Assembly: GCA_016201865.1 (NCBI GenBank)
Contig: JACQCA010000019.1
Coordinates: forward strand, 1 to 64,000
Direction: 5' to 3'
Source: Nitrospirota bacterium
Lineage (GTDB): Bacteria > Nitrospirota > Nitrospiria > JACQBZ01
DNA length: 64,000 bases
The notes beneath the pieces are model-generated. The model was not told the DNA's origin and did no database searches. It worked only from the letters and a program-made list of their open reading frames with translations. Shown here in pieces: positions 6,423 through 64,000 of this stretch; position 1 is the first letter of the stretch, and the number at the start of each line of letters is the position of its first letter. Both the position numbers and the translations under genes were made by a program.

Positions 6423-7094
6423 ATGCGACTGGCCATATGTTTGACCGTGCTCTGTCTTGCAGTAGGGGGTCCGGCCGCCGCGTCGGATCTGAGCCGGCCT
6501 ACGGAATCACTGAAACCGGGAACGTTTCTCTTCTCGGCGCCTCAATTGCGCGACCCGCACTTTTTCCACACCGTCGTTCTTCTGGTCACGTACGGCGCTG
6601 AAGGCGCCTCGGGTTTGGTCATCAACCGTCCCACCGATATTTCCCCCGGCCGGGCCTTTCCGGATCTGAAAGGGATTGAAAAATTACTAAAGCCTGTTTA
6701 TTTCGGCGGCCCGGTCAATCAGAGTCTCATCCTGGCGCTTTTGCGGACGGAATCCCTGCCGGACGGGGCGCAGAAGGTCGTGGACCATATCTATGTGACG
6801 GCCAGCCGGAAGGCCCTGGCCGACGCGCTTCAGAACCGAGATCCCGATAAAAAGGTTCGGGTTTTTTTCGGTTACGCCGGTTGGGGACCGGGACAACTTG
6901 ATCGGGAGTACGGAAACGGGGATTGGGTTGTCCGGGATGCGGATCCGGAGGCCGTTTTTTCGGAAGATCCCTCCACGGTCTGGGACGTGATCATGGAGCG
7001 CCGGGAAAAGATCCAGATCCGGACTCCGAACCTCCCGCCGTTCCTGCCATGGCCGTTCGGCATCCTTTCTAAAGGCCCGATCAACGGTCTCTAA
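6423..7094 (+). CDS. YqgE/AlgH family protein (with predicted signal peptide)
   Basis: 'LFSAPQLRDPHFFHTVVLLVTYGAEGASGLVINRPT', 'YFGGPVNQ', 'FFGYAGWGPGQLDREYGNGDWVV'. Confidence 0.92.
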   Translation: MRLAICLTVLCLAVGGPAAASDLSRPTESLKPGTFLFSAPQLRDPHFFHTVVLLVTYGAEGASGLVINRPTDISPGRAFPDLKGIEKLLKPVYFGGPVNQSLILALLRTESLPDGAQKVVDHIYVTASRKALADALQNRDPDKKVRVFFGYAGWGPGQLDREYGNGDWVVRDADPEAVFSEDPSTVWDVIMERREKIQIRTPNLPPFLPWPFGILSKGPINGL

Positions 7095-7415: not shown

Positions 7416-8675
7416 CTATTTATTATAGGGGCTCACGTCGCCCCCTCCACCGGCGAAGCCGGATGGAGCCTCCCCCTCTCGCTCGCCTTGCGAGCTGGGT
7501 AGATCCCCGCGGATATAAATCGGATTCGAGAAAATCCAGGGCCGCAGGCTCCCTTCGATGGTAAGCGAGATCTGGACCCGGTACACGCCGGCCTCTTCGA
7601 CCGGAACGGTCCACTGCGCCGTCTCGGCCTGTCGGATGACCGTTCCGTTTCGGATCAGCTCGATCCGTCCCGCGACCGGACTTTGGACGGTCAGTCTTAA
7701 TCCCGTCGTAAGCCTTATCTCGTCGCCCTGCATTCCTTTGAACGCCGGATCACCCGCCCAGAACGCGAAGCCGGTTGCGTCCGAAAACGTATCGAATGCC
7801 ACATAGGCATGACCGGAAGCGAGAGCCCTCAGCAGCTCCGTTTCGTTCAGGCCCTCGGCCAGGACATGCGTACGGACGAATCGGAAGCTCAAGCCGTAGG
7901 AATCGATCCGGCGGCCCAGAAGCCGGATGTTTTGATGCGCGTCGTTCCCGGCGAGGCCCGCCCAGCGCCGTTGTTGCGTCAGCGCATCCCATCGCCGAAG
8001 CGCTTCGGTCGGCCGATCGAGAATGGACGAGAAAACCTCCTCGGGATAAGAACGGAACGAGTACTCGATATCCAAAAAATATTTCGGAAACCGCCAGCGG
8101 TGGTCCACCGCGTCGTCTAAGATATCGTAAATCTCCATTCCGTCTATGCCTTGCGAGTCCCAATCGGTAAACCCGTTCGGATGGGCGACAAAGGCCAGCC
8201 CTCCCTGTCGCTTGACCCGGGCGATGATCTGGGGCATCGTCAGCGCTGCGGGGTCCAAGTAGTTTTTCAGTCCAAGAATGAGCAGACTGTTGCAGGTGTC
8301 GCCGGTGCGGCCGGCGCATCCTTTGATGATTTCGGAACCGCGGATGACCAGGATGTTGTCGAACCATCCTTCAAAGCCCTGAGTGTAAACTCGAGGGTTG
8401 TGGTGATCCGTCATGACCACGAATGAAAGCCCGGCCTGCTTGGCTCCTTCAATGATTTCATCCATCGTTCCCCGGCTGTCATGGGACAACAACGAATGGA
8501 CATGAACGACGCCCGGAAAATCCCGGTAACCCGCGAGCGGAGGAATCGGCCTTCGAGTTTTTTGGAGGGCTTCGATCGCATCCTTCTGTCGTTGCCAATA
8601 CGCGTGGGAAGTGCAACCCGATGCGGGGAGGATGAGGAAAAGAAGCATCAGGGCCGGCGCGAGACTTCGGGGCAT
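7416..8675 (-). CDS. PHP-domain metal-dependent phosphoesterase-like lipoprotein
   Basis: Lipobox 'LPASGCTS'; 'GVVHVHSLLSHDSRGTMDEIIEGAKQAGLSFVVMTDHHN' PHP motifs; C-terminal tail encoded by a dispersed repeat. Confidence 0.85.
   Translation of the reverse strand: MPRSLAPALMLLFLILPASGCTSHAYWQRQKDAIEALQKTRRPIPPLAGYRDFPGVVHVHSLLSHDSRGTMDEIIEGAKQAGLSFVVMTDHHNPRVYTQGFEGWFDNILVIRGSEIIKGCAGRTGDTCNSLLILGLKNYLDPAALTMPQIIARVKRQGGLAFVAHPNGFTDWDSQGIDGMEIYDILDDAVDHRWRFPKYFLDIEYSFRSYPEEVFSSILDRPTEALRRWDALTQQRRWAGLAGNDAHQNIRLLGRRIDSYGLSFRFVRTHVLAEGLNETELLRALASGHAYVAFDTFSDATGFAFWAGDPAFKGMQGDEIRLTTGLRLTVQSPVAGRIELIRNGTVIRQAETAQWTVPVEEAGVYRVQISLTIEGSLRPWIFSNPIYIRGDLPSSQGEREGEAPSGFAGGGGDVSPYNK
7425..7502. repeat. 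~80-bp hairpin element, copy A
   Basis: ataggggctcacgtcgccccctccaccggcgaagccggatggagcctccccctctcgctcgc...gagctgggta; near-identical to 63462..63544 and similar to 59915..59998. Confidence 0.85.
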
Positions 8676-59899: not shown

Positions 59900-59914
59900 T
59901 CGTTTTACTATTTT

Positions 59915-59998
59915 ATAGGGGCTCGCGTCGCCCCCTCCATCCGCCTAAGGCGGAATGGAGCCTTCCCCCTCTCGCTCGCTGAGCTCGCTGGGTATTTA
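59915..59998. repeat. ~80-bp hairpin element, copy B (intergenic)
   Basis: Same family as 7425..7502 and 63462..63544; compensatory changes in the inner stem (ccgcctaaggcgg). Confidence 0.85.
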
Positions 59999-60619
59999 CC
60001 TGGAAGGCGCGTAGTAGGGATTTCGGCCGGAGGCGTGGTCCGTAGTATCAAGAATCTCCGTGACCTCGGGGACGAACTGCCGGATCGTCTTCTCGATGCC
60101 CTGCTTGAGGGTGACGGAGGCCATGCCGCAGCCCTGGCATCCGCCGCTCATCTTGATATAGACCGTCGTTCCTTTGACGTCCAAGAGCGATACGTAACCG
60201 CCATGTCCCCCCACGCCCGGATTGATCTGTGTGTCTAAGAGATTCTGGATCTTGGCCTTGATCCGTTCTTCATTGGCGAGATCGGCCCCGGATCCCTTCG
60301 AGATCGCGGACGGGAGGGACGCCGCCTCGGACTGGAGATATGCCCGGATCACCTTCCCCACCTTCTTTCCGATTGCGGTCCAGTCCTCGGCGCCCTTCTT
60401 GGCGATCGTGACCGTGTTGCCGGCCAGTTGAACGGCCGTCACCCCCTCGATCTGAAACAACTTCTCGGCCAGGGGCGATTCCTTGGCTTTTTCCCTGCCC
60501 AGGTAGAGGAGCGAGCCTCCCGCGCGAAAGACGGGACGGTCGACGACGAACTTGCACCGCTCCGCGTCCAACACCTCCGCCTTGATCTTGATCTCCGTAT
60601 CGGCTTGTTTTAATTCCAT
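59996..60619 (-). CDS. Nfu-type Fe-S scaffold protein with N-terminal Nfu_N-like domain
   Basis: 'INPGVGGHGGYVSLLDVKGTTVYIKMSGGCQGCGMASVTLKQGIEKTI' (CxxC NifU C-terminal domain). Confidence 0.93.
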   Translation of the reverse strand: MELKQADTEIKIKAEVLDAERCKFVVDRPVFRAGGSLLYLGREKAKESPLAEKLFQIEGVTAVQLAGNTVTIAKKGAEDWTAIGKKVGKVIRAYLQSEAASLPSAISKGSGADLANEERIKAKIQNLLDTQINPGVGGHGGYVSLLDVKGTTVYIKMSGGCQGCGMASVTLKQGIEKTIRQFVPEVTEILDTTDHASGRNPYYAPSR

Positions 60620-62740: not shown

Positions 62741-64000
62741 TTATTTTAAGCCGTACGCTTTTTGAATGATCTGAATCGGATGGACCGATTTCTTCCCGGT
62801 GCTCTGCGTGAGCGCCATGCCGGAGAGGGGACAGTCCGAGGCGGTCACATCCGGTTTGGCATTCTCGACGGCGGCAAAGGCTTTCCGCCCGACCTTGAGC
62901 GAGAAGTCGTAGTATTCTTGTTTTACCCCGAACGTGCCGTCATGTCCGGAACATTTCTCGATCACCTCGACCGTGATCCCGGGAATCAGCTTCATCAGGT
63001 CACGGGATTTCAGCCCGATGTTCTGGTCCCGCAGATGGCACGGCACCTGGTAGGCGACCTTGCCGGGGCTGGAGACGAAATCCTTCGCAAGTTTCCCCTG
63101 GCTGTCGAGTTTCATGAGATATTCGCAGAGATCATAGGTGTTGGCCGCGACCTTCCGCGCCTCTTCCGTCGGAACGAGGTCCGGGTATTCCTTCTTCAGC
63201 ATCAGGCTGCAGGTCGGCATGGGGGAGACAATTTTATAGCCCGCATCCACGGCGGCTGCCAGACTCTTGATATTCGACCGGGCCTTTTGACGGACCGCCT
63301 CCAGATCCCCGATATCGAAGTACGGCATCCCGCAACATTCCTGCTCCGGGCAGATCACCTCGACGCCGTTTTTCTCAAGGACCTGGAGCGTGGCCTTGCC
63401 GATCTCGGGATCATGGCGGTTGACGTAACAGGTATAAAAGAGCGCCACCTTTTCTTCCATCATAGGGGCTCGCGTCGCCCCCTCCACCGGCGAAGCCGGA
63501 TGGAGCCTCCCCCTCTCGCTCGCTTCCGCTCGCTGGGTATCTACAAACGATTGCCGATGGAAATGGGGAAAAAGTCTTTCCCGGTGAATACCCATCACTT
63601 TTTCAAGTACCCAGCGCACCGACGGTTGCCGCAGAGCCCAGTTGGTCAGCGGAGCGATCATTCCGCCCAGGCGCCCCATGAAATCCACATCGGCCAGAAA
63701 CCGGTCGCGCAGTCCGGCCGGTTGCCGGTTCAACTTTAAATGCTTTCCCCAAAGCATGAGCCGCGGAAAATCCAGGTCGTAATGATGCGGGGGGCAATAA
63801 GGACAGTGGTTAAAACAGAGTTTGCAATAATAACAGAGATCCACCACCTGATTTAAAACCAGGGCGTCCAGCGCGTTCACTTCGCCGTCTTTGTCGTCGA
63901 CGCCGCGGAACAGCACATCAAACGACGGGCAAAGGTTAAAGCATCTCCGGCATCCGTTGCAGATCTCATAGACACGCAACGTCTCGGTGTCAAAGGCTTT
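62741..64000 (-). CDS. GlpC/HdrB-type Fe-S oxidoreductase, probably continuing past the window edge
   Basis: 'CNGCRRCFNLCPSF', 'CYYCKLCFNHCPYCPPH', CCG motifs 'CPEQECCGMPYF' and 'KCSGHDGTFG'; the frame stays open to position 64000. Confidence 0.88.
   Translation of the reverse strand, partial: KAFDTETLRVYEICNGCRRCFNLCPSFDVLFRGVDDKDGEVNALDALVLNQVVDLCYYCKLCFNHCPYCPPHHYDLDFPRLMLWGKHLKLNRQPAGLRDRFLADVDFMGRLGGMIAPLTNWALRQPSVRWVLEKVMGIHRERLFPHFHRQSFVDTQRAEASERGRLHPASPVEGATRAPMMEEKVALFYTCYVNRHDPEIGKATLQVLEKNGVEVICPEQECCGMPYFDIGDLEAVRQKARSNIKSLAAAVDAGYKIVSPMPTCSLMLKKEYPDLVPTEEARKVAANTYDLCEYLMKLDSQGKLAKDFVSSPGKVAYQVPCHLRDQNIGLKSRDLMKLIPGITVEVIEKCSGHDGTFGVKQEYYDFSLKVGRKAFAAVENAKPDVTASDCPLSGMALTQSTGKKSVHPIQIIQKAYGLK
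63462..63544. repeat. ~80-bp hairpin element, copy C, in frame inside the Fe-S oxidoreductase CDS
   Basis: Encodes '...DTQRAEASERGRLHPASPVEGATRAPMM...'. Confidence 0.88.

Follow-up and report, generated by a model that had tools for sequence, protein, structure and literature searches.

The window analysed here is a 64,000-nt stretch (positions 1 to 64,000) of contig JACQCA010000019.1, assembly GCA_016201865.1, from a groundwater Nitrospirota bacterium. Near its right-hand end lies a gene for a GlpC/HdrB-like Fe-S protein, and inside this gene lies one of three window copies of a short structured repeat (Table 1). The initial annotation described a dispersed element of about 80 bp read in frame within the gene. 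The sequence it quoted was located at 63462-63539 of the plus strand; the minus-strand ORF is open across this segment, with no stop, and the element encodes VDTQRAEASERGRLHPASPVEGATRAPM there. Both the open frame and the dispersed copies were thus confirmed. Copy 1, whose ends were judged by conserved leader and tail columns, adds 28 residues to the protein and keeps the frame. The insert (segments TQRAEASER and LHPASPVEGATR) sits in the linker, as had been proposed, with the ferredoxin part on one side (Pfam Fer4, residues 10-67) and the CCG domains on the other (CCG, 185-269). AlphaFold prediction from a 15-row alignment gave a mean pLDDT of 80, falling below 50 at residues 178-192, within the insert, and better-predicted parts flank this stretch. 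The low values fit a flexible linker and are in themselves no proof of tolerance.

Table 1. Element copies, hairpins and host gene in the window
Feature	Position	Strand	Remarks
GlpC/HdrB-like Fe-S protein gene	62741..63979, ORF continuing beyond window edge	-	MIPFDSPKF is the start in L031
Element copy 1, in frame in GlpC/HdrB-like gene	~63456..63544	-	coding strand is the folded strand
Hairpin P1 of copy 1	63518..63534	-	GCGAGC GGAA GCGAGC, tandem G-A mid-stem
Hairpin P2 of copy 1	63482..63506	-	CTCC-A-CCGGC TTC GCCGG-T-GGAG; covarying hairpin
Hairpin P3 of copy 1	63465..63482	-	GGGGC GACGCGA GCCCC; outer base approximate; then tail TATGATGGA
Element copy 2	7421..7505	-	extends C-terminus of minus-strand gene 7416-8675; empty in G001, G003, G004
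Element copy 3	59911..59999	-	between convergent genes; abuts stop of NifU-like gene 59996-60619

The extra residues are an insertion and not a segment that orthologs share by homology. In an alignment of the protein with 14 orthologs (A3), the same 28 residues stand at the same site in two further family members, G004 and G005; they are missing from G003, where the site is empty, and from orthologs of other families. The G001 ortholog has an unrelated dispersed repeat at the linker site (GTAGGGGCGGC... and GGGCAGGCACGGGGACCTGCCCC), halves of which recur in 6/6 genomes searched, with nine matches in the window's own genome; in the G001 ortholog (L032 1501-2904) the linker repeat reads GTAGGGGCGGC... 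/ GGGCAGGCAC..CCTGCCCC. In a protein tree from which the linker was left out, G003 is the first branch of the family, followed by the window's genome (G000), G004, G005 and G001, with moderate support (81/91). The simplest reading of these sequences is one insertion after the G003 split, which would subsequently have been lost or replaced in G001. In all three relatives P1 of the GlpC-like gene copy carries the uncommon GGAA loop, and this speaks against separate insertion events. As a separate matter, the G000 gene lacks about 19 residues directly before the insert, near 63544, that are present in G004 and G005, and this deletion stops at the element edge.

The initial annotation had also considered that the gene might be two ORFs, with MMEEKVALF as the start of the second. 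ATGATG does occur at the junction, and elsewhere start codons often follow copies of the element, but all three carriers have a continuous frame, every aligned relative has a single ORF, the second ATG is lost in G004 and no Shine-Dalgarno sequence is visible ahead of ATGATG. The consensus tail TATAATAGA reads P-I-I-E while that of copy 1, TATGATGGA, reads P-M-M-E, which explains the apparent second start MM: ATGATG derives from the element's own ATAATA tail. We regard a split gene as highly improbable.

Repetition of the element goes far beyond chance. Its 19-base core has two exact occurrences; the expected number, allowing up to 3 mismatches, is 0.10. The window matches lie at 7425-7501 (copy 2, 92% identical) and 59915-59999 (copy 3, 88%). 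The latter is intergenic, as annotated; copy 2, described as lying at a gene end, does lie there but does more, lengthening the C-terminus encoded by its gene by about 26 residues. Its site, like the Fe-S gene site, is found both empty and filled among relatives. A genome-wide census of the own assembly (2.47 Mb, 97 contigs) yielded 41 BLAST matches, with E values from 3.5e-58 to 3e-6, and 52 matches by covariance model, intergenic and intragenic copies both being found.

Aligned copies define a core of about 80 bp, or about 90 bp including leader and tail. The order on the folded strand is leader GATCTACC, hairpin P1, an invariant GAGAGGGGGAGG, hairpins P2 and P3, and tail TATAATAG. P1 has the consensus GCNNGC loop GCNNGC, frequently with tandem G-A in mid-stem; P2 is CTCC ... 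GGAG around a variable, covarying inner stem; P3 is GGGGC GACGYGA GCCCC, and column conservation stops about 9 nt past GCCCC. What had been called a hairpin element is therefore structured and dispersed, but it has three hairpins, not one, and is slightly longer than first reported. Among the 57 sequences of alignment A2, 92.2% of cells were paired versus 83.9% after shuffling, and the covariation score was 0.248 versus 0.102; 0/500 shuffles scored as high, and the other covariation measures likewise exceeded all 500. Kinship inflates covariation scores, but controls with slid partners retain the same kinship, and in these pairing dropped to 32-49% and covariation was gone. G-T pairs (31) far outnumber A-C pairs (5), which identifies the sense strand as the folding strand. 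Leader-tail complementarity, at 4.72 versus 4.80 in re-paired controls, gave no terminal inverted repeats above control level. An extra palindrome of variable sequence stands directly ahead of P1 at six loci (L016, L025, L076, L108, L131 and L147).

Gene context was assigned for 145 distinct copies with a simple, uncurated codon-usage gene caller. The folded strand was the transcribed strand for 58 copies in co-directional spacers and the opposite strand for 18; inside genes the counts were 20 and 3. The bias recurs in the Nitrospirota subset (42:6 in spacers, 12:2 inside genes), and the own genome shows it too (19:2 and 7:1). Given the common descent of copies and the uncurated caller, binomial values (as low as 1e-7) serve only as a guide. 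Upstream stops are commonly 0-60 nt from the copy.

Similar in-frame hosts occur elsewhere. Family models recognise PurN and PriA of the own genome as hosts, the PriA copy being antisense, and PBP1A, RimP, MetG, RecB and LeuS as hosts in bins labelled Deltaproteobacteria; weaker cases are DUF58, AsmA-like and alpha-2-macroglobulin proteins. Internal copies keep the frame without stops despite varying hairpin length, and copies at gene ends supply new C-termini, as window copy 2 does. At L206 9950-10030 (G173, a single-copy genome), a copy supplies the C-terminal tail of one gene and lies immediately ahead of the next start. Two of the three sense frames of the element contain no stop; given the right length, an insertion can therefore be read as a hydrophilic peptide. 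We also considered that the element is removed or bypassed in expression, by RNA excision or ribosome bypassing, leaving the peptide absent from the protein. The sense bias in genes and such conserved hosts as LeuS, PurN and RimP speak for this; the kept, stop-free frame, which would be needless under removal, speaks against it, a weak argument in that the intragenic census saw open frames only and disrupted genes were outside its reach. We think removal or bypassing very unlikely.

At the nucleotide level the insert changes more slowly than its host gene. Between genera it is about 97.6% identical, versus 85-87% for the flanking coding DNA; third positions are 96-100% identical in the insert and 68-71% in the flanks, and in none of the pairs does a 28-codon window of the flanks reach the conservation of the insert. 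At other shared sites, too, the flanks have mostly diverged further than the element, and among the P2 differences some are compensatory. Slower change inside the gene implies that nucleotide-level constraint or gene conversion acts on the element; selection on the folded strand and conversion among copies would each explain the conservation. The insert is also more conserved than expected of a spacer that is simply tolerated. The pattern raises the possibility of a functional RNA element of transcripts (in processing, stability or translation control) that happens to move, its genic copies being kept for the RNA function. The covariation with its folded-strand asymmetry, the sense bias, the many copies 7-30 nt ahead of a start codon, the slow change and the compensatory P2 changes all favour such a role. 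Set against it, the hosts and neighbours seen have no common function, presence differs between close relatives, some copies including that in PriA are antisense, Rfam covariance models gave nothing significant against the element, and gene conversion also accounts for the conservation. We hold an RNA function to be possible but doubtful. No promoter or intrinsic terminator was associated with the element.

The element is spread over several phyla. Twenty-one relatives have 0-129 copies per genome by covariance model, and 5/148 genomes of an even sample of the phylum carry it under stricter filters. A pattern scan of GTDB found it, among the matches listed (at least 100), in Nitrospirota and in Deltaproteobacteria including Syntrophus and Syntrophorhabdus, and also in one Acidobacteria bin and one Peribacteria bin; 14 genomes of several phyla reached through these loci have 2-122 copies each. 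Near-identical cores are shared by Nitrospirota, Desulfobacterota, Acidobacteria and the Peribacteria bin, and exact cores in different phyla indicate horizontal spread. Since metagenome contigs may be binned wrongly, occurrence in the rarest phyla is less secure. One copy with its flanks is identical on L076 and L118, an Acidobacteria-binned and a Syntrophobacterales contig, and one of these two bins is probably contaminated. Distant blastn of phage and plasmid records and an exact pattern search of viral contigs gave no match, and a literature search with sequence strings of the element found nothing related.

The enzyme that moves the element was sought among the 21 relatives, where neither candidate mobilising gene is supported. 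Reverse transcriptase was rejected, RVT_1 occurring in only 2/21 and being absent from nearly all carriers. Y1 transposase, which would move the element as a REP-type repeat (RAYT), is an improbable mobiliser. The element is indeed a short palindromic dispersed repeat, and Y1_Tnp genes occur in 18/21 relatives, but element-bearing and element-free genomes alike are among these; two carriers, G004 and G015, gave no Y1 match, and in the own genome no copy lies near any of the three Y1 loci. We therefore rejected Y1, finding neither correlation with presence nor adjacency. The GTAG REP/RAYT class was rejected as well: the GTAG tag is absent, no copies flank the own-genome Y1 genes, and there are three hairpins rather than one. 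Inspection by eye around the copies in single-copy Nitrospirota genomes, with neighbours left unannotated, revealed no autonomous form.

CGTC REPs have a single stem of 8-9 bp with a 4-5 nt loop, AT first pairs and a CCA tail, and likewise come without a dedicated transposase (PMC3733652). The element resembles GTAG- and CGTC-tagged REPs in being palindromic, dispersed and mainly intergenic with some intragenic copies; it differs from CGTC REPs in its longer three-hairpin unit and in having CGTC inside a loop of the antisense strand. Compared with the published description, its alignment and fold have no unpaired CGTC end, no lone 8-9 bp stem with AT first pairs and no CCA tail, and it was excluded from that superfamily. 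Bacterial MITEs (Correia/NEMIS, ERIC, RUP, YPAL) are non-autonomous units of about 100 bp, in some of which an open frame is fused to a gene (PMC2229807). The element is MITE-like as a short non-autonomous repeat, but terminal inverted repeats are absent, and no target duplication of fixed short length was seen, a minority of copies being bounded by direct repeats of variable length.

Rickettsia palindromic elements (RPEs), to which the initial annotation likened the repeat, are short dispersed structured repeats, intergenic or in frame within genes, with conserved enzymes among their hosts (PMC2229807). The likeness holds for the mode of working: both are dispersed, both are intergenic and in-frame intragenic, and both have housekeeping hosts. 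It fails for membership. RPEs, which are specific to Rickettsia, measure 105-146 bp and carry terminal inverted repeats, whereas the element has three hairpins without leader-tail complementarity and occurs in Nitrospirota, Desulfobacterota and others. Having no single long terminal-repeat stem, and with hosts beyond Rickettsia, it was not assigned to the RPEs. It is a real, dispersed, mobile element that inserts in frame, RPE-like in working and outside the RPE group.

Most probably, then, the Fe-S gene received a short, non-coding, mobile structured element, inserted in frame and kept in a linker. Such an element would spread within and between genomes with an enzyme presumably supplied in trans. 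One strand folds into three hairpins, with ssDNA or RNA as the likely recognised form, and that strand is usually the transcribed one; copies lie mostly in spacers of co-directional genes and sometimes in genes. In an ancestor shared by part of the family, copy 1 would have inserted into a variable linker of low predicted confidence that joins two folded parts, its peptide presumably being translated, and we propose that it was retained because neither folded part was disturbed, the effect on the protein then being nearly neutral. Counting against a mobile element are the lack of terminal inverted repeats, the lack of flanking duplications at most copies, the failure to find a mobilising gene, and an insert more strongly conserved than simple tolerance would predict. 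More tentatively, one sequence may serve at once as mobile element, structured RNA (or ssDNA) and protein segment, oriented by transcription, shared across phyla and held constant at the nucleotide level in genes.

In-frame palindromic insertions are known mainly from Rickettsia; enterobacteria and Neisseria add some MITE fusions. An unrelated element that does the same in several phyla of free-living bacteria suggests that proteins repeatedly gain new segments in this way. The conserved fold and sense bias offer handles on the mobilising enzyme and on a possible RNA action of the repeats, and the empty and filled sites in close relatives make both questions testable.

At three loci (L084, L102 and L137) the element separates an intact gene 3′ end from a duplicate of it, the gene being rplL by sequence at L084. 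The duplicated ends are identical at first and then have nearly only synonymous differences up to the stop codon; they may be an assembly artefact. A protein-level search for further recoded duplications gave none that was convincing beyond these three DNA-visible cases, the rest resembling paralogous repeats or chance. A minority of copies are flanked by direct repeats of variable length (17-59 bp). These repeats and the arrays below are compatible with a mobile element, whatever its machinery. At L161, a copy that follows a tRNA-Pro gene (6583-6658) lies between exact 36-bp repeats, which include the tRNA 3′ end. At L229-L233, in two Syntrophorhabdus-type genomes and a delta-proteobacterial bin, copies follow one another head to tail in arrays whose unit measures about 79-90 bp.
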